DNA from: Gamsiella multidivaricata
Taxonomy: Eukaryota > Mortierellomycota > Mortierellomycetes > Mortierellales > Mortierellaceae
Reading direction: 5' to 3'
Assembly (NCBI RefSeq): GCF_025024155.1
Contig: NW_026251752.1
Coordinates: 186,001-250,000 of the forward strand
Length of the DNA stretch: 64,000 nucleotides
Shown one piece after another: positions 48,403-61,886 of this stretch. The notes beneath the pieces are model-generated. The model saw only the letters and a program-made list of their open reading frames with translations, searched no databases and had not been told where the DNA came from. Made by a program: the position numbers and the translations under genes. The number at the start of each line of letters is the position of its first letter. Position 1 is the first letter of the stretch.

Positions 48403-51282
48403 GTTTTTGAGTCGCTCACAAGAAAATATTTTTCTTGCCACCACACACGCCAACCCGACAGCTCGAAGCACCACAAGCACCCAGGACAAGTGGTTCCCCC
48501 GGTCGACTGCACGGCGTCCCCGTCTCGTCGCTGTCAGTCGGTCAGTCGGTCAGTCTGCACCTCCCATTGGACAGATGGGTCCAACACGAACACAGGGGGC
48601 ACTGGCGGGCGGAGAGGGACCCCTGTCCATGTGACACCCGCGCTGGTCGCCTCCGCTTGAGCTGCCAATGCTCAACATGCATCCACCAATGGGAGCCCTA
48701 CTCTGATGTGAAAGCGTCCTTTTCACGAGTGTGCTGCATTGCACCATGCTCCTATCTCTCCACGGCCCACCATCCGCCAAATTGACTTTGCTTCACCGCT
48801 GCAAACATCTTCCTCGTCGTCCTTCCTTGGCCTCTGTCCCATTAACTAAGTGTACCGCGACATGCGACAGTACCTCTTTTTTCCTTCTTTCGTCCTCCTC
48901 CTCCTCTTCCTCCTCTTTTTACTTCTGGCATGCATTTTAGAAGTAGACCGATGCACTGCAAACATGCATACAACATGCTCCTCACATACAGAGTGAGCGA
49001 GCAGGAAAAAAAAGAAAAATTAGGTGTGTACGCCCTTCGCGTTAGTCATGCCATTGCTGAACCCATTCTCACCCTCTTCATTTCTCTGGGAAAAAAAGCT
49101 CTTTTTAATTTTGCATGCAGCTGTTATTTGTTGTTATTTGTTAGTCTATCTGTTGTTTGTTCATACAACTCGTTCTGCTTGCATCAGCAGAGAGAATAAG
49201 CCCATGTCCCAAGTCGTTGATATGCCGCAGGCAGCAGTGCGTAAAAAATAGTTGTCTTTGTTACTTGCTGCAATTGTGTGGCGAAGACCAGGGGGCTAAT
49301 AAGAATCGCGGCTGTGCTGCTGTTGGTTGCCGTTGTGGCAAAAGTTCAAAAGCGCTGCCTACCCTTCAGCCTCCTCTGTAATTGGCAGTGCGGGCTCATC
49401 AATTGGGAAGGCGCCAGCCTGTTGCGCACAGGCTGATACGATGGTGCCCCTTGATATTTATTATCAAGAGACGGGTGCCCTGGAGGCAATCGGCTATACT
49501 TGGCCACTATGAAACATAATCAGCGACGCAGCCAATGAGCCTCTGTGATCTCCAACTAGGCAGTTTGAGCAGGCAATCTTTGAAAAGAAAAAGCGTCAGA
49601 GACATGGACTATGACAAGTAATAGCTGCTGCAGTGGTCATCAGTCCTGCCGTAACCCTGAACATCTTGTTGTCGGGCATGTGGATGGACAGCAATACGGA
49701 TGAAAGTATCAGCGATAATAATTGTTGACATGGACGTTGATAACAGACGCTGAGAGACAAGACCGAGCGCGTCGTGGCCCTTGGTCCTTTGCAAGCTTTT
49801 ACTCCTTCCTGCGGTGCACGTGTTTAAATGGCATAACTCAATTCAGCTAAATTGATAAATTTTCTTGTGTGTTGCTGTGTTTGCAGTTATGGAGACTGGC
49901 ACAAAACCCGTGCAAATTTTTTATCGTGAAGATATTTGAGCAGTGCCAATATGTTTTGGCGAGCGGGAGTGACGAGTGAGAGAACTTCTTGTACCACGAC
50001 CAGGGGCTGCTGGTAAGGTGCCTGCCTTCTTTCTTTTTTCTTTTTTCTTGTTGGTGACCGAGATGATAATCGTGCAGGACAGCCCTCGATAGAGCAAATC
50101 TCTTGCTTTCGCAACAGTGCACAAAGGAGGCCGCATGCACCACAAGGACTAGACTAGTGCAGGCGTGCATTTTTTTATATATTTTTTTTTTGCATGTTGC
50201 ATTTACGCTCGACAAATTCGGATGGCCCAGATTGGTTTCAACAACTCTCAGTGCCAGTAATCCCTGTTTCATTCCATAAATCCGTCTGGGTCCCATTGTT
50301 CACCTTCCTACACAAGACATTGCCAGTGGGTGCGCAGAAAAAAGAGACAGGGAGAGAATGAATAAATGATGATGGACGATGATCCTCTTCCCTATCTGAG
50401 TGGTCAAGAGCGGCGAATTGTATTGAGCGCAGGTAGGGTCCACAAATCAAGGAGCAAAAGAGCCGGCGGGGTATGACAGCAGCATGCTTGACGCAGATGG
50501 ACAACAAACTTTACTGCTGAGCGATGTGCTGTTGTCCTTTTTTTGATCGACCGCTCCCATTTTGTGGGAAGGGAGGGAAATCAGCGGAGCTCAGGCCAAC
50601 TCGGATCCATATTCGATGTTGCTGCAAGTCGGCCCTGTGCCTGAACCAGTCGTCCACGTACAATGTTCTTAGTTTCTTTTTAGACCCCTCTGCATCGGAC
50701 CCTGCGACAAATGACAAATAACAAATGAGAGGAAGAAGAGGGAAAACACTAAAACAAATAACACAGGCATCGTTCACTCGTCCATAAACCCCCGCATCGC
50801 ATCGCCTCAGTTTGCTTTGCAAATGCACCTCCGCCTTGCCTGGTTCGCCTGCTTGCTTTGACTTTTGCCATCTTCCTTTTTATATGTTAATTGGTTGGAT
50901 GGGTGCTTGCATATGGGATGTTACACCTCCTTAGCACCTTGGCAGGGGGATAACAGGAAAAAAGAGGGGACCCAGGGGTGTCTGGTGTCCAGTTTTTGGT
51001 TGTTTGGGTGGACATTTTTTGTTGTTGTTTATTGCCGCAGAGCGAATGAGTGAGTGTGCGAGTGGGCGGTGAACTCTCATATGTTTCTCTCGCCGTCAAT
51101 AAACAGACGACGAACTCAATACTGTTTTCCCTCCATCAACTCCAACAGCCTTTCCTTCTTCATTCCTTCATTCCTTCATTCCTTCATTCCATCCTCTTCC
51201 GCTTCCCTTTCTCTCCCTCTCTCCCTCTCCCTCTCCCGCTCTTACATCCTCACACTCCCGCACTCACACTACTCACACACAC

Positions 51283-51335
51283 TCACTCACTCACTCACTC
51301 ACTCACTCACTCACTCACTCACTCACTCACACACA
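51283..51335 (+). repeat. (ACTC)n tetranucleotide repeat upstream of the histidine kinase
   Basis: About eleven copies of ACTC flanked by CA-rich sequence, ending roughly 135 bp before the kinase start codon. It probably lies in the promoter or 5' leader. Confidence 0.9.
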
Positions 51336-51467
51336 CCCAGACGCACACACACACACCCACTCACACCCACTACCTAATACCACACCGTGCATGCACTCTA
51401 TCTAGACACTGCTCCCCACCACTACCGCAATACACAGCGCGCTGTGTGAACATCCTGTTCAGAAGCC

Positions 51468-54400
51468 ATGGCTACCCTCACAGACACCTACATGGACCAT
51501 GTAGCCAATGTCCTGGATATGCTCGGCCAGGACAGAGCCCTCGACTCAATACCTTCCCCATTCCTCTTCTCTCCCTCTTCCTCTTCAGCCTCACCCGCAA
51601 CACCATCCCCCGGATCCTCCTCCCCCCTCATCCAAAAGATCGATGTCGCACTTCAGCGGGTCGTCCAAAAGATTTTCCTAATGGAGCACGAACTGACTCG
51701 CCACCGTAGAGACTGTTCCTCCGCCAACGGAGCCCTCTACTACGACCGGCTCAACAGTACCCTCGACTCTACAAATCTACCCATCGTTCCGCCGATCCTC
51801 ACTCCCCCTGTCGACCCTCTTTCGCCATCATTCTCTGCCTTGACTCAGTGGACCGAAGGCATCACAGCCACAGTCTGGGGATTCCACGACCCTACAGCGG
51901 CCTATCCCACCCTGCATTCTTGTCTGTCCCAGGAGAGGTTGTCTCTGTCCGCCTCTCAGTCCTCCCCCGACAGCCGCAAGCGCGACCGCATCAGTCTTGC
52001 AAGGGCCAGCGAATTGCATGCTTCTCACACCCCTACTGCCTCCTCCTCCTCTTCGTCCTCCACGAATGAACTCGCTTCCAGCTCCGACCTTTCTACCGCC
52101 GCCATCACATCCTCAGCCATATCAGCAACATCTTCAACAGCAAAGCAATCGACGGCAACAGAACCCCCATCAATTGCTGTCGAAGCGCCCTTGGATTGCA
52201 GTGACATATTGGCGGACCCTGCGACTTCAATGCCCTCTTCCCCAGACTCCTTTCGCTCTGCTCGCTCATCATTCAATCCAGACGACTCTGACGTGATACC
52301 AACAACAGCACTCCCTCCAATCAATCATCATGCCGCTGCACTGACTGTTCCTGGTTTCTCAATGTCGAGCGAGAGCCCTTGCGCCGCATGCGTCCACAAA
52401 TGTGCACTGGTCGCTGCTGCTGTGGTTAGGGGTGAGTTGGGCGTACGGATAAACTGCGCACGAGAGGCATGCAACCGTACTGCTCTTACCACATCCATCA
52501 ACGCGATGGTGGCCAAGCTGTCAGATTTCACAGAGGAAGTCATCCAAGTCGCAGCCCAGGGAGTCGAGGGCAAGCTGGGCGTCCAGGCAAAGACGGCAGG
52601 TGAGCACGGCAAGTGGCAAGAGTTTGTCAGTCATCTGAACACCATGACACTCGGCCACATGGAGCAGGTCCGTGATATCGCATCCGTCTGCACAGCCGTC
52701 GCTCATGGCGACCTATCCAAGATGATTTCTGTCGAGGTCAAGGGAGAAACGCTCGTTCTGAAGAACACGATCAACACCATGGGTAAGTCAAGGCTGGATT
52801 GCAAATTATTGTCTCGCTTTTTGTGTGTGACGGATTGGAAGGAATTTTCTTTTGGACATCCAATCAAGGGCGTGATGAGCATGCGCTGCAAGATAGACAC
52901 TGACGACATTTCTTCTCGTTTTTTATTTGCTGCACCCTTGCGCGGACGAAATTTATCAAACATATCTTATGGATGCCTGCTCGAATACGTCGCCATTCAC
53001 ATCTCACAGTCGGTCAATTGCGATCATTCTCATCCGAGGTCACACGTGTCGCCCACGAAGTCGGAACAGAGGGAAAGCTGGGTGGTCAGGCCCACGTCAA
53101 GGGAGTCGCTGGAACCTGGAAAGAGCTCACGGACAACGTCAACATCATGGCCGCGAACTTGACAGTGCAGGTGCGAGATATTGCCAGTGTCAGCAAAGCT
53201 GTCGCTAAGGGCGACCTCTCCAAGAAGATCTCAGTCGAAGCTAGTGGCGAGATGATGGACCTCAAGAATACTATCAACACCATGGTCGACCAGCTGCAGG
53301 AATTCGCCACGGAGGTATCTCGTGTCAGTCTCGAAGTTGGTACAGAAGGCAAACTTGGTGGTCAAGCACATGTTAAAGATGTAAGCGGGACCTGGAAGGA
53401 GCTCACGGACAATGTGAACCTGATGGCCTCCAATCTCACGGGCCAGGTGCGTGATATTGCAACAGTCTGTAAAGCAGTCGCTTGTGGTGACCTGACAAAG
53501 AAGGTCAGCGTACCTGTCCAAGGAGAGATTCTGGAACTGAAGGAGACCATGAACACAATGGTGGACCAGCTGAGGACCTTTGCCGCTGAGGTCACTCGAG
53601 TCGCTCGCGAGGTCGGAACCGAAGGAAAGCTCGGTGGACAGGCTGAGGTCGAGGGCGTTGACGGTACGTGGAAGGAGCTGACTGACAATGTCAACACCAT
53701 GGCTGAGAACTTGACAGCCCAAGTGCGCGATATCGCCAACGTCAGTAAGGCCGTCGCTCGAGGCGATCTGTCCAAGAAGATTTCTGTCGAGGTCAAAGGA
53801 GAGATGATGGACCTGAAGCACACTATCAACATCATGGTTGACCAGCTCCAGGAGTTCGCCACTGAAGTATCTCGCGTGAGTCTGGAGGTCGGCACAGAAG
53901 GAAAACTGGGCGGCCAAGCAGTCGTCAAGGACGTCAGCGGTACCTGGAAGGAACTCACGGATAACGTCAATACCATGGCATCTAACCTTACGACCCAAGT
54001 CCGATCCATCGCAGAAGTCACGACAGCTGTCGCATGTGGAGATCTCAGCAAGAAGATTGACGTACAAGCCCAAGGTGAAATCTCAGAACTCAAGCTCACA
54101 GTCAATTCAATGGTCGAACAGCTGAGGACATTTGCAGCCGAGGTCACTCGAGTCGCCCGCGAGGTCGGAACCGAGGGCAAACTTGGGGGCCAAGCACATG
54201 TGAAGGGCGTCGATGGCACGTGGAAGGAGCTGACTGACAATGTCAACACCATGGCTGAGAACTTGACAGCTCAAGTGCGTGACATTGCAAGTGTTAGTAA
54301 GGCCGTCGCTCGAGGTGACCTGTCCAAGAAGATTTCCGTCGAGGTCAAAGGAGAAATGAGTGATCTGAAGCACACTATCAACACCATGGTCGACCAGCTC

Positions 54401-57400
54401 CAGCAGTTCGCCACCGAGGTATCTCGAGTGAGTCTGGAGGTCGGCACTGAGGGTAAACTTGGTGGTCAAGCAGTCGTCAAGGATGTCAGTGGTACTTGGA
54501 AGGAGCTCACGGATAACGTCAACACTATGGCCAGCAACTTGACAACCCAGGTACGATCAATCGCCGAGGTCACCACTGCCGTTGCGTGCGGCGATCTGTC
54601 CAAGAAGATCGATGTCGAGGCACAGGGTGAGATCTCAGAGTTGAAGTTGACGGTTAACTCCATGGTGGAGAGACTTCGCACTTTTGCCGCAGAGGTCACA
54701 CGTGTAGCACGCGAGGTCGGCACGGAAGGAAGGCTAGGAGGCCAGGCCGAGGTTAGAGGCGTCGATGGCACGTGGAAGGAACTCACGGACAACGTTAATA
54801 CCATGGCTGAGAACTTGACAGCTCAAGTACGTGACATCGCCAACGTCAGTAAGGCCGTCGCTCGCGGTGACCTGTCCAAGAAGATTTCTGTCGAGGTCAA
54901 GGGAGAAATGAGTGATCTGAAGCATACCATCAATACCATGGTCGACCAGCTCCAGCAGTTCGCCACCGAGGTATCTCGAGTGAGTCTAGAGGTTGGCACA
55001 GAAGGCAAGCTTGGCGGCCAAGCAGTCGTCAAGGATGTCAGTGGTACTTGGAAGGAGCTCACGGACAACGTCAACACCATGGCCAGCAACTTGACAACCC
55101 AGGTACGATCCATTGCCGAGGTGACGACAGCCGTCGCTTGTGGTGACTTGAGCAAGAAGATCGATGTCGAGGCACAGGGTGAGATCTCCGAGCTGAAGCT
55201 GACTGTCAATTCGATGGTGGAGCAGCTCAGAACATTCGCAGCTGAGGTTACTCGAGTCGCCCGTGAGGTCGGAACTGAAGGAAAGCTCGGTGGACAAGCG
55301 CAAGTGAAGGGCGTGGACGGCACGTGGAAGGAGCTGACTGACAACGTCAACACCATGGCCAGTAACTTGACAACCCAGGTGCGATCGATCGCAGAGGTCA
55401 CCACTGCTGTTGCGTGCGGCGATCTCAGCAAGAAGATCGATGTCGAGGCACAGGGCGAGATCTCCGAGCTGAAGCTGACGGTCAACTCGATGGTGGAGCA
55501 GCTGAGAACGTTCGCAGCTGAGGTCACTCGAGTCGCTCGTGAGGTCGGAACCGAAGGCAAACTTGGTGGACAAGCGCTGGTCAAGGATGTTAGCGGCACC
55601 TGGAAAGAATTGACGGACAATGTCAACACCATGGCTTCAAACTTGACGACCCAAGTCAGAGATATTGCCGATGTCAGCAAAGCAGTCGCCAAGGGTGACT
55701 TGACCAAGAAGATCACCGTGAACGTCAAGGGAGAGATGATGGACCTGAAACATACTATCAACACCATGGTCGACCAGCTCCAGGAGTTTGCCACCGAGGT
55801 CAGTCGTGTCAGTTTGGAAGTCGGCACAGAAGGAAAACTGGGCGGTCAAGCTGTGGTGAAGGACGTCAGTGGTACCTGGAAGGAGCTTACAGACAACGTC
55901 AACACCATGGCCAGTAACTTGACAACCCAGGTGCGATCCATTGCCGAGGTGACTACAGCCGTCGCTTGTGGTGACTTGAGCAAGAAGATCGATGTCGAAG
56001 CACAGGGTGAGATCTCCGAGCTGAAGCTGACTGTCAACTCGATGGTCGAACAGCTGAGGACATTCGCAGCCGAGGTTACTCGTGTTGCTCGTGAGGTCGG
56101 AACTGAAGGAAAGCTCGGTGGACAAGCGCAGGTTAAGGGTGTTGATGGAACGTGGAAGGAACTGACTGACAATGTCAACACCATGGCTGAGAACTTGACG
56201 GCGCAGGTACGTGATATCGCCAACGTCAGTAAAGCCGTCGCTCGCGGCGACCTGTCCAAGAAGATTTCTGTCGAGGTCAAGGGAGAGATGATGGACCTGA
56301 AGCACACTATCAACATCATGGTTGACCAGCTCCAGGAGTTCGCCACCGAGGTCACACGTGTCAGTTTGGAAGTCGGAACTGAGGGTAAACTTGGTGGTCA
56401 AGCAGTCGTCAAGGATGTCAGTGGTACTTGGAAGGAGCTTACAGATAATGTGAACACCATGGCATCCAATCTTACAACCCAAGTACGATCCATTGCCGAG
56501 GTTACTACTGCTGTTGCTTGTGGAGATTTGAGCAAGACTATTGAAGTAGAAGCACAAGGCGAGATCTCTGAGCTAAAGCTGACTGTCAATTCGATGGTGG
56601 AGCAGCTGAGGACATTCGCAGCCGAGGTTACTCGAGTGGCCCGTGAGGTCGGAACCGAAGGAAAGCTAGGTGGACAGGCTCAGGTGAAGGACGTTGGTGG
56701 TACGTGGAAGGAGCTGACGGAGAACGTCAACACCATGGCGGCCAACTTGACCACTCAAGTGCGTGACATTGCCGATGTCAGCAAAGCTGTTGCCAGGGGT
56801 GATTTGACCAAGAAGATCACTGTCAACGTCAAAGGAGAAATCCTGGACCTCAAGAACACCATCAACTCTATGGTATGTTATTGTCTTTGAAATTCATCTA
56901 TTGTTTATTGTATTAATGTTTGTTCGGCAGGCAACCAATGGATATTCACAATCACTTCTGCATTAGGTGGATCAACTTTCAACGTTCGCTGCTGAGGTCA
57001 CCCGTGTGGCCCGCGAAGTCGGAACCGAGGGCAAATTGGGAGGCCAGGCAGAGGTCGAGGAGGTCGATGGCACGTGGAAGGAACTTACAGACAATGTCAA
57101 CACCATGGCTGCCAATCTTACTGCGCAGGTGCGTGATATTGCCGGTGTCAGCAAAGCCGTCGCTAAGGGAGATCTGACCCAAAAGATCTCTGTGGATGCC
57201 AAGGGAGAGATTCTCGACTTGAAGAACACCATCAATATCATGGTATGTGGCAATTGGCGGCCCATTGCACTGAAACAGGGTATTATGTATTATGATACAG
57301 ACATCTAACTTCAGCGCTTACACGTTCTAGGTCGACCAGCTGTCCACTTTTTCTGCAGAGGTTACGCGTGTCGCTCGAGAGGTCGGCACAGAAGGAAAGC

Positions 57401-60400
57401 TAGGTGGCCAAGCAGAGGTCGAGGATGTTGACGGAACCTGGAAGGAACTGACCGACAACGTCAATACAATGGCTGCTAATCTCACGGCGCAGGTGCGATC
57501 CATCGCAGAGGTCACCACCGCTGTTGCATGCGGAGATCTTAGTAAGAAGATTGATGTACAAGCTCAAGGCGAAATCTCTGAGCTGAAATTGACGGTCAAT
57601 TCGATGGTGGAGCAGCTAAGAACGTTCGCAGCTGAGGTCACTCGAGTCGCTCGTGAGGTCGGAACCGAAGGCAAACTTGGTGGACAAGCGCTGGTCAAGG
57701 ATGTTAGCGGCACCTGGAAAGAATTGACGGACAATGTCAACACCATGGCTTCAAACTTGACGACCCAAGTCAGAGATATTGCCGATGTCAGCAAAGCAGT
57801 CGCCAAGGGTGACTTGACCAAGAAGATCACCGTGAACGTCAAGGGAGAGATGATGGACCTGAAACATACTATCAACACCATGGTCGACCAGCTCCAGGAG
57901 TTTGCCACCGAGGTCAGTCGTGTCAGTTTGGAAGTCGGCACAGAAGGAAAACTGGGCGGTCAAGCTGTGGTGAAGGACGTCAGTGGTACCTGGAAGGAGC
58001 TTACAGACAACGTCAACACCATGGCCAGTAACTTGACAACCCAGGTGCGATCCATTGCCGAGGTGACTACAGCCGTCGCTTGTGGTGACTTGAGCAAGAA
58101 GATCGATGTCGAAGCACAGGGTGAGATCTCCGAGCTGAAGCTGACTGTCAACTCGATGGTCGAACAGCTGAGGACATTCGCAGCCGAGGTTACTCGTGTT
58201 GCTCGTGAGGTCGGAACTGAAGGAAAGCTCGGTGGACAAGCGCAGGTTAAGGGTGTTGATGGAACGTGGAAGGAACTGACTGACAACGTCAACACCATGG
58301 CTGAGAACTTGACGGCGCAGGTACGCGACATCGCCAATGTCAGTAAAGCCGTCGCTCGAGGCGATCTGTCCAAGAAGATTTCTGTCGAGGTCAAAGGAGA
58401 GATGATGGACCTGAAGCACACTATCAACATCATGGTTGACCAGCTCCAGGAGTTCGCCACTGAAGTATCTCGCGTGAGTCTGGAGGTCGGCACAGAAGGA
58501 AAACTGGGCGGCCAAGCAGTCGTCAAGGACGTCAGTGGTACCTGGAAGGAGCTTACAGACAACGTCAATACTATGGCGTCCAATCTTACAGCACAAGTAC
58601 GATCTATTGCCGAGGTCACGACGGCTGTCGCATGTGGAGATCTCAGCAAGAAGATTGACGTACAAGCCCAAGGTGAAATCTCAGAACTCAAGCTCACAGT
58701 CAATTCAATGGTCGAACAGCTGAGGACATTTGCAGCCGAGGTCACTCGAGTCGCCCGCGAGGTCGGAACCGAGGGCAAACTTGGGGGCCAAGCACATGTG
58801 AAGGGCGTCGATGGCACGTGGAAGGAGCTGACTGACAATGTCAACACCATGGCTGAGAACTTGACGGCGCAGGTACGTGATATCGCCAACGTCAGTAAAG
58901 CCGTCGCTCGCGGCGACCTGTCCAAGAAGATTTCTGTCGAGGTCAAAGGAGAGATGATGGACCTGAAGCACACTATCAACATCATGGTTGACCAGCTCCA
59001 GGAGTTCGCCACCGAGGTCACACGTGTCAGTTTGGAAGTCGGAACTGAGGGTAAACTTGGTGGTCAAGCAGTCGTCAAGGATGTCAGTGGTACTTGGAAG
59101 GAGCTTACAGATAATGTGAACACCATGGCATCCAATCTTACAACCCAAGTACGATCCATTGCCGAGGTTACTACTGCTGTTGCTTGTGGAGATTTGAGCA
59201 AGACTATTGAAGTAGAAGCACAAGGCGAGATCTCTGAGCTAAAGCTGACGGTCAATTCGATGGTGGAACAGCTGAGGACATTCGCAGCCGAGGTTACTCG
59301 AGTGGCCCGTGAGGTCGGAACCGAAGGAAAGCTAGGTGGACAGGCTCAGGTGAAGGACGTTGGTGGTACGTGGAAGGAGCTGACGGAGAACGTCAACACC
59401 ATGGCGGCCAACTTGACCACTCAAGTGCGTGACATTGCCGATGTCAGCAAAGCTGTTGCCAGGGGTGATTTGACCAAGAAGATCACTGTCAACGTCAAAG
59501 GAGAAATCCTGGACCTCAAGAACACTATTAACTCAATGGTAAGTCTATACGCTTTGCATTTTTATTTTGATGCCTTCATTCAAAAGTGGCTAATGAATCT
59601 CATTCTGCTATAGGTGGATCAACTGTCGATGTTCGCCAATGAGGTGACGCGTGTCGCGCGCGAGGTCGGCACTGAGGGTAAGCTAGGAGTACAAGCCCAA
59701 GTGCAGGATGTCCGGGGAACATGGAAGGAAATCACGTCCAATGTCAACACCATGGCCAGTAACTTGACGGCCCAGGTGCGCGCCTTCGCCTCCATTTCGA
59801 CTGCTGCCACAGACGGAGATTTTACTCAGTTTATCACTGTCGAGGCCAATGGAGAGATGGACTCGCTCAAGACTAAGATTAACCAGATGGTGTATAATCT
59901 CCGCGAAAGTATCCAAAAGAACACTGCCGCGCGTGAGGCAGCCGAGCTTGCAAATCGATCTAAATCCGAGTTCTTGGCCAACATGTCTCATGAGATCAGG
60001 TAGACGCTTTTGGAGTTTTATGTGCGGTATATACTCATGGATTGTTCGTGGTAATGATCTGTGCTAATGCGCTTCTTTTTAATCCCGTATAGAACTCCTA
60101 TGAACGGTATCATCGGAATGACCAGTTTGACATTGGAAACAGAGCTCACCCGACAGCAGCGCGAGAACCTGGTGATTGTCAGCCATCTGGCCCACTCTCT
60201 GCTCACTATCATTGATGATATCCTTGATATCTCCAAGAGTAAGTCTGTTCCCGCCTCAACTACAATTTGGTTCGCATTTGAATTTGTTCTGCTTGCTAAT
60301 ATATACATTTTACGCAATATTTAGTCGAGGCTGGTAAAATGACGATTGAGCAAGCACCCTTCTCTCTTCGTACTCAAGCATTCGGGGTCCTGAAGACACT

Positions 60401-61886
60401 CGCTGTCAAGGCCCATCAGAAGAAACTGGACCTCATCTACAATGTCCACAATGACTTCCCAGACCAGCTTATCGGTGATCCCTTGCGATTGCGTCAAGTC
60501 ATTACAAACCTGATCGGAAACGCCATCAAGTTCACGACAGAGGGCAGTGTTGTCCTGGACTGTGTTTGCAAGAACAAGACGGACGTTGGCGTGGAGCTCC
60601 AATTCTGCGTTTCGGACACGGGTATCGGAATCCAAAGCGACAAGATCGAGGTTGTCTTTGACACGTTCTGTCAGGCCGACGGCTCTACGACGCGCAAATA
60701 CGGAGGCACAGGTCTTGGTCTTTCCATCTCGAAGCGTCTGGTCGCACTGATGGGAGGAGATCTCTGGGTCAACAGTACGTTCGGAAAGGGGTCCCAGTTC
60801 TTCTTTACCGTGCGATTCAACACGGGCACTATGTCAGTCGATCAGATCAATCTCAAGACGAAACCATATGTCGGACGACATATCCTCTACATGGGTACGA
60901 TGCGCGACGAAGCCATATCCAATTCTGTTATGAAGACATTGGAGGAGCTCAAGTTCAAGGCGACGCATGTGACATCTCTCGAGCAGGCGGCGTCCTTGGT
61001 TCCGATGTCAAGTCCAAACTCTGCGGCGGAGAAGTCGATTTTTGATGTTGTGATTGTCGACAATGTCAAGGATATCCGCAAGATCAAGGAGATCGGGATG
61101 CTAAGGTTCCTGCCGATTGTGCTCCTTTCCATGACTACTCCATACATCAGTATGAAGGTCTGCCAGGATTTGGGTATTGCCAGCTATTTCAACCCTCCCG
61201 TACAGCTGACCGATCTGATGAATGCACTCTTGCCTGCCTTTGAGTCAGCTTCGGCCCTACCCTCGGATGCAGAACATGCGATCCCATTGCATATTCTGTT
61301 GGCTGAAGACAACGTCGTGAATCAGAAGCTGGCGGTCCGTATCCTGGAGAAGTTTGGTCATAAGGTGACGATTGTCGCGAACGGCAAGACAGCGGTTGAG
61401 TTCTTTAGCAGTATGCACTTTGACCTGATTCTCATGGACGTGCAGATGCCCATCATGGGTGGATTCGAGGCAACACAAGAGATCCGCAAGCTGGAGATGC
61501 TGAGGGGTGGCCATGACCATCTGCCTATCATTGCATTGACGGCCCACGCCATGATTGGCGACCGCGAGAAATGTCTTGCTGCTGGGATGGTAAGTTTACA
61601 GACAATGTTGTCGGATTACCCTTTGTTTTTTTTTTGCCGTTCAGAATATGTGGACTTGGAACTGATATTTTTTTATTCCTTTTTTTGCATGAATGTATAG
61701 GATGAATATATCACAAAGCCGCTGCGTGTCAACGAGCTGATTGCAACGATCAACAAGTTCCCGCCAAAGAACTGCCCAGACCTGGTGCAGAATGATGCCT
61801 ACTACGACTACACCCATCTGCGCGCGAACTACAGCCCTGTGCAAGATGAGAAGAACAAATTCAATTTCAACTCCTCCTCATCTTAG
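51468..61886 (+). CDS. Giant group III (Nik1/Os-1-like) hybrid histidine kinase with about 25 HAMP units
   Basis: Eight exons (51468-52782, 53010-56872, 56967-57242, 57331-59538, 59614-59999, 60093-60238, 60325-61589, 61701-61886) sum to 9645 nt, 3214 codons plus stop. No transmembrane helix is seen, so it should be cytosolic like Nik1. Residues 1-300 are Ser/Pro-rich. From about 310 to 2650, HAMP-type units of 92 residues repeat, each with GDLSKKI, LKxTxNxMVx[14 protein letters not shown] and [11 protein letters not shown]. The HisKA domain has NMSHEIRTPMNGI (His2680). The HATPase has [15 protein letters not shown] and [10 protein letters not shown]. The receiver has [19 protein letters not shown] (Asp3103) and a KPL motif near the end. 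Nik1 kinases signal through Ypd1 to Ssk1 and Skn7 and are the fungicide-sensitive osmosensors; their roughly 1300 residues hold five to seven HAMP units. Kinase residues look intact. Function in this species is inference. Confidence 0.93.
52640..59900 (+). repeat. HAMP-coding 276-bp tandem array, about 25 units
   Basis: Counting GTWKEL-type motifs gives 24 units starting at about 53111, 53390, 53669, 53943, 54219, 54496, 54771, 55047, 55323, 55600, 55876, 56152, 56428, 56704, 57071, 57436, 57714, 57990, 58266, 58542, 58818, 59094, 59370 and 59718. A degenerate unit sits in exon 1 ([13 protein letters not shown] near 52610), and perhaps another just before it. Spacing within exons is 276 nt. 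Two forms alternate: form A has VRDIAxVSKAVA, form B has [22 protein letters not shown]. Confidence 0.95.

Follow-up and report, generated by a model that had tools for sequence, protein, structure and literature searches.

Long arrays of 92-residue HAMP repeats in two predicted group III histidine kinases of Gamsiella multidivaricata

Can a group III (Nik1-type) histidine kinase really carry 25 HAMP-bearing repeats, and what would such an array do? The question is raised by gene A of Gamsiella multidivaricata (assembly GCF_025024155.1, a 37.5-Mb genome in 180 contigs), which occupies positions 51468–61886 on the forward strand of the window, the 64,000-nt stretch analysed here (contig NW_026251752.1, positions 186,001–250,000); coordinates of gene A are relative to this window. 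The initial annotation, made from the letters alone, had described a 3,214-residue Nik1-type kinase in which a fourfold expanded array precedes one intact HisKA-HATPase-receiver module. Splicing of the eight exons yielded 9,645 nt, or 3,215 codons including a single, terminal stop, with GT-AG borders in 7 of 7 introns, confirming the exon sum given there; Pfam and the catalytic motifs likewise upheld the kinase type, the array and the single module.

Domain layout of protein A

The first 300 or so residues of protein A form a Ser/Pro-rich head (51468–52379), in which none of the listed Pfam families had its best stretch. After one leading HAMP with a GELG motif comes the array, 25 units of 92 residues (residues 343–2642; 52494–59877) split by introns 1–4. 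All 24 gaps between the 25 anchors measured exactly 92 residues, with no break in the rhythm along the array, and Tandem Repeats Finder recovered the corresponding 276-bp period in two blocks with scores of 2515 and 1538, far beyond chance. The Pfam count proposed as a check returned 23 HAMP (PF00672) and 25 HAMP_2 (PF18947) stretches; other Pfam matches in the protein (ATG17-like, IL10, Prominin etc.) were taken as helical-repeat noise. Across the 54 inner units of protein A and of its paralogue, protein B (described below), 52 of the 92 columns were invariant, and 9trk, a solved histidine-kinase HAMP chain, aligned across both halves of the unit.

In CaNik1, five repeats are described as nine HAMPs, namely four 92-residue pairs and one single (PMC3848655). 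Because the 92-residue unit is a HAMP pair in CaNik1, counting in the same way would give protein A about 51 HAMPs (26 + 25) and protein B about 67 (34 + 33). The earlier figure of 24 full units plus one or two degenerate ones was thus right to within one as a count of units (25 plus the leading HAMP) and too low as a like-for-like number of HAMPs.

HisKA, HATPase_c and Response_reg each matched one stretch of protein A. The HisKA domain (residues 2670–2735; 59959–60335) spans introns 5 and 6 and contains the H-box SHEIRTPMNG; the HATPase_c domain (residues 2782–2896; 60474–60818) holds the N, DTGIG and GTGLGL boxes; and the receiver domain (residues 3055–3170; 61293–61751), marked by an 18-residue motif segment and ITKPL, spans intron 7. 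All seven catalytic motifs sought (H-box, N-box, G boxes and receiver motifs) were present in both proteins. Group III has been defined through its H-box together with tandem HAMPs (PMC4965123). Protein A combines tandem N-terminal HAMP repeats with a single HisKA-HATPase_c-receiver module retaining its catalytic residues; its H-box is a candidate for the group III signature, and its close homologue P0003 is labelled NIK1 in the source. With 25 units in A and 33 in B, both proteins depart from the group III yardstick of five to six (seven) repeats. We did not take this count as defining the group, because the number of HAMP repeats is said to differ among species (PMC5159414). The same yardstick, which the initial annotation had applied, stems from papers on ascomycetes and fails for the relatives counted here.

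Relatives and the paralogous gene B

For the homologue search, protein length was limited to 0.55–1.75 times that of A, with a lower bound near 1,768 residues, and the E value to at most 1e-60; units were counted in the best 120 of 7,988 proteins, a set biased towards long, high-scoring ones. The families and subphyla given for the species other than Gamsiella are presumed ones. The 13 Mortierellaceae proteins contained 30, 28, 26, 26, 23 (six proteins) and 21 units, together with one of 24 (one overlapping match, so 23) and one partial protein of 18; one of those with 23 begins inside the array. Near-complete Mortierellaceae arrays thus ranged from 21 to 30 units, and 23 recurred in Linnemannia elongata, L. 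hyalina and M. hygrophila. Counts elsewhere in this set were 12–26 in Mucoromycotina, 18–20 in Basidiobolus, 25–28 in Dacrymycetes and 16–21 in Mycena, while six Kickxellales proteins whose array is preceded by a head had 39, 37, 37, 34 (three odd spacings), 32 and 32 units. Kickxella P0121 (36) and Linderina P0016 (42) were excluded for their many odd spacings, so that the largest regularly spaced array among the matches listed had 39 units. Ascomycetes were absent from the species named for the best 120, and the figure of five to six comes from the papers.

The spacing was as uniform as the counts were variable. Among the 2,159 unit spacings of 110 presumed fungal homologues, 2,092 measured 90–94 residues, none 44–48 and one 136–140, with the other 66 scattered; ten bacterial or unnamed homologues gave a spacing of 92 in 159 of 168 cases. 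When the search was repeated with a minimum length of about 2,963 residues, 250 proteins were returned at E values up to 1e-60, and the best 120 of these included 22 poly-HAMP kinases, every one with a fungal name. The hyper-expanded array appears to be lineage-wide and is not unique to gene A. The suggested comparison with Nik1 homologues of related species therefore told against the picture of a one-off array: long arrays are usual in the listed family proteins and frequent in early-diverging fungi, and the genome itself holds a second gene. The size regarded as usual for Nik1 is typical of the ascomycetes and yeasts that have been studied and not of fungi in general. As a separate observation, the Coemansia kinases P0005, P0006 and P0007 reach 5,388 residues with 37–39 units, and P0005 has a long low-complexity insert within its receiver region.

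Gene B lies on the minus strand of contig C136 (117891 to 105184), where 11 exons encode 3,898 residues with 33 units. Its layout is that of gene A, with a spacing of 92 residues in 32 of 32 gaps, and it has more units than every Mortierellaceae protein counted; among all counted proteins, only some from Kickxellales exceeded it. At an E value of 0.001 the whole genome contained 54 HAMP places, 23 in gene A and 31 on C136 (both lower bounds), and no further HAMP-bearing locus was found at this threshold; two candidates for histidine-phosphotransfer (HPt) proteins were also present. When A and B were compared across the last HAMP and the kinase (390 aligned codons), they differed by 0.021 nonsynonymous (dN) and 1.34 synonymous (dS) substitutions per site, which points to an old duplication under strong constraint (purifying selection). 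In a tree of 45 kinase ends, A grouped with Linnemannia and one Mortierella alpina copy (support 95/95) and B with Entomortierella, M. claussenii and Lobosporangium (support 90/87). With these moderate supports, we infer that the split of A and B is older than these genera. No matches were found between the flanks of the two genes (26 kb of C136 compared), and we therefore make no claim of a segmental duplication. Four array introns of gene B are identical 90-mers, which would make them copies of one intron-bearing block.

Proteins A and B share with the fungal group III kinases (Nik1, Os-1, Bos1, TcsC, CaNik1 and DhNik1) the tandem 92-residue HAMP-pair repeats followed by HisKA, HATPase_c and one receiver; the known members act in the high-osmolarity glycerol (HOG) phosphorelay. 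They differ from these kinases, for which five or six repeats are reported (PMC3418262, PMC3848655), in their 25 and 33 units, in the cysteine cluster of the leading HAMP and in the presence of two paralogues. The architecture of A and B is shared by the database proteins P0001–P0122 (Mortierellaceae, Mucoromycotina, Kickxellales, Basidiobolus, Dacrymycetes and Mycena), with 12–39 units where regularly spaced. The bacterial poly-HAMP histidine kinases P0091 and P0098 have the same 92-residue rhythm, with 17–18 units in the bacterial matches counted; the bacterial matches also carry GAF domains (PF13185, PF01590), and their kinase module is distant in the tree from that of A and B. The solved chains 9trk and 9trj are poly-HAMP as well, and 9trk matches both halves of the A unit. 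Pseudomonas aeruginosa Aer2 has concatenated HAMPs in common with A and aligned weakly (3vol, E 0.0016); it differs in its chemoreceptor output and in the number of concatenated HAMPs, three in the solved chain 3LNR (PMC3570549).

A literature search found no description of group III kinases with such arrays, an absence that carries little weight with most subscription papers outside its reach. A 2017 survey of early-diverging fungi reports group III kinases, and its searched text, figures aside, does not mention HAMP (PMC5285503). Such arrays are already present as database entries. Poly-HAMP chains and divergent HAMPs were reportedly discussed in 2010, in a HAMP survey by Dunin-Horkawicz and Lupas and in a letter by Airola and colleagues.

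Array history, proposed mechanism and alternatives

Most unit pairs in the two arrays are old. Median dN and dS were 0.17 and 1.53 for unit pairs within A (219 of 300 pairs with a value) and 0.15 and 1.61 within B (419 of 528), and median dS between A and B was 1.68 (632 of 825); 18 valued pairs over the three sets were dropped as saturated. Even so, no length change was found inside any of 58 units. Superimposed on this divergence is a mosaic in A, its blocks displaced by 7, 9 or 16 units: units 11–13 are 97.5–100% identical to units 18–20, units 14–15 more than 99% to units 23–24, and units 5–6 93.5% to units 21–22. The longest exact internal repeat measures 668 bp in A, with copies within units 11–13 (55505–56172) and units 18–20 (57619–58286), and 455 bp in B. 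In A, 18 of 25 units found their best match in another unit of the same gene, as did 29 of 33 units in B. The mosaic has the appearance of conversion and unequal exchange rather than of assembly stutter, and the arrays have likely grown and been homogenised via recombination between units within each gene.

An expansion produced by the assembly or the gene model is a very improbable source of the array, because a separate G. multidivaricata record (P0319, a 7,305-bp contig) is identical to protein A at 903 of 903 residues (347–1249) and because most pairs of units diverged long ago (median dS about 1.5). It is also opposed by the 17 of 25 A units that are less than 98% identical to any other unit, by units 15 and 24, which are 99.3% alike and yet followed by different introns, and by the same architecture in many other genomes. 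What speaks for it is that the exact repeats in both genes exceed the span of short reads and that units 11–25 of A, like gene B, lie beyond the part that P0319 covers (residues 347–1249 of A); P0319 may also stem from the same reads. P0319 ends about 20 residues short of the 668-bp repeat, a stop that would fit a short-read assembly.

We consider it fairly probable that protein A is a group III hybrid kinase acting as a soluble HOG osmotic switch, in which a long dimeric HAMP rod relays input from its far end, the pairing of HAMPs keeps polarity and the number of pairs sets the threshold. The 25-unit array would form a very long dimeric rod of coupled bistable HAMPs, each unit presumably a HAMP pair in a continuous chain, as suggested by CaNik1 and by the alignment of 9trk over both halves. 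The rod would hold the kinase in a resting-on state and pass input at the far end to the kinase core. Judged from helix lengths, at roughly 2.3–2.7 nm per HAMP the array of A would measure some 120–140 nm. By analogy with tandem bacterial HAMPs, reported in alternating switch states (PMC3570549), adjacent HAMPs would switch in opposite senses, and growth of the array in whole pairs would leave the sign of the output unchanged. DhNik1 is described as a kinase that is active in the resting state and that hyperosmolarity or fludioxonil inhibits, whereupon Hog1 is activated (PMC5159414); in the same manner, hyperosmotic shock may turn kinase A down and so switch Hog1 on. The number of pairs would then set the stimulus strength required to flip the rod, with length altering threshold or cooperativity.

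Several points weigh against this mechanism. The predicted structure of three units was poor (AlphaFold, mean predicted local distance difference test score, pLDDT, 44), giving only helices of about 30 residues and the 92-residue rhythm, and a profile comparison of the two unit halves was weak (probability 6.8, P 0.005, little diversity). The reports on HAMP loss disagree in the sign of HAMP control: CaNik1 without all HAMPs activates Hog1 in yeast and inhibits growth, and a change of the kinase histidine relieves this inhibition, whereas DhNik1 in truncated form is described as constitutively active and fungicide-resistant, not being inhibited by fludioxonil (PMC3848655). Whole-unit steps are no proof of a polarity rule, because recombination between 276-bp units gives identical steps, and the far-end input is a conjecture. 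Counts also vary among near relatives, with 15 regular units in Coemansia P0122 against 32–39 in the others, 28 in Linnemannia zychae against 23 in three other species of the Linnemannia group, and 19 matches (two overlapping) in Rhizopus delemar P0067 against 13 in P0095, P0096 and P0107; these differences may reflect paralogues, collapsed assemblies or real change. In the kinase tree, P0001, the other M. alpina copy, joined neither the A nor the B group.

The variation in counts, 21–30 in Mortierellaceae and 15–39 in Coemansia, is also what neutral length would produce, with unequal recombination adding and removing units, selection preserving only fold and register, and a kinase of 25 units working just as one of five does. 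The preference of most units for a best match within their own gene, the identical introns of B and the shift of unit types by lineage fit this explanation, which we regard as possible but doubtful. It is countered by the absence of five- or six-unit proteins among the 13 listed Mortierellaceae (in a set biased by its length limit), the recurrence of 23 units in three species, the constant unit length at a dS of about 1.5 and the lack of any other HAMP-bearing locus in the genome at the threshold used. That the array merely sets the kinase at a distance from membrane, nucleus or a partner, carrying no conformational signal, seems improbable: extreme length and a head region lacking a recognised sensor domain in Pfam would suit a scaffold or spacer, whereas the invariant columns, putative packing positions, and the altered activity of CaNik1 and DhNik1 upon HAMP deletion (PMC3848655) speak against one. 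A bolder version of the relay, an allosteric wire of more than 100 nm in early-diverging fungi in which inverters are added in pairs only, the cysteine cluster of the first HAMP serves as a metal or redox input and alternative splicing could change the length by whole units, appears unlikely.

By one published account, little is yet known of what the HAMP repeats do in these fungicide-target kinases (PMC3848655). The natural series from five units in the papers to 39 here, nearly always in 92-residue steps, offers material for the questions of threshold and inversion raised by the rod mechanism, and bears on how far a conformational change can travel within a protein.

Two candidate patterns in the array were rejected. 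Two unit types alternate, a pattern reached by 96 of 20,000 shuffles in A and 0 of 20,000 in B; it was dropped as a meaningful pattern and taken as the footprint of a two-unit duplication, because Linnemannia arrays are nearly all of one type. All S-type units of A (array 52494–59877) and B have a cysteine at unit position 71, and by pattern check the matching site occurs in many units of 8 of 9 other Mortierellaceae proteins. In Lobosporangium this position is alanine or another residue throughout, with alanine in the S-type units, and a reading of these cysteines as a redox ladder was dropped for that reason. The Lobosporangium alanine would be a sign of homogenisation within the gene.

Input end and exon structure

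The leading HAMP of protein A contains a cysteine cluster, C-x2-C-x3-C-x17-C-x4-C (residues 305–335; 52380–52472). Its C-x2-C-x3-C-x17-C part was found in 27 of 329 proteins searched, A and B included; the other 25 carriers comprise 12 Mortierellaceae, nine Kickxellales, three Basidiobolus and one Dimargaris, and no Mucoromycotina, Basidiomycota or bacterial protein among the 329 had it. Nine proteins from the carrier groups or their neighbours lack the cluster. Of the nine, six begin inside the array (P0013, P0016, P0022, P0110, P0222 and P0319), and the other three, P0064, P0092 and P0121, possess a head, which counts against a strict rule. That the cysteines form a metal or redox site is a guess.

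The exons of gene A lie at 51468–52782, 53010–56872, 56967–57242, 57331–59538, 59614–59999, 60093–60238, 60325–61589 and 61701–61886. Intron 1 (52783–53009, 227 bp) is in phase 1. Intron 2 (56873–56966, 94 bp), intron 3 (57243–57330, 88 bp) and intron 4 (59539–59613, 75 bp) are all in phase 0 and directly follow units 15, 16 and 24, respectively. Except for the first intron of each array, the array introns of A and B share one position within the unit and are in phase 0, and the inner array exons are therefore whole multiples of 276 nt. In gene A, exon 3 (56967–57242) is exactly 276 nt, or one unit, and exon 4 (57331–59538) is 2,208 nt, or eight units, each with both ends in phase 0; exons 3–7 of gene B comprise 2, 5, 11, 6 and 2 units. 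Skipping of an inner array exon is predicted to remove whole units in frame. A (CTCA)n-type microsatellite at 51249–51366 precedes the gene A start codon by about 100–220 bp.

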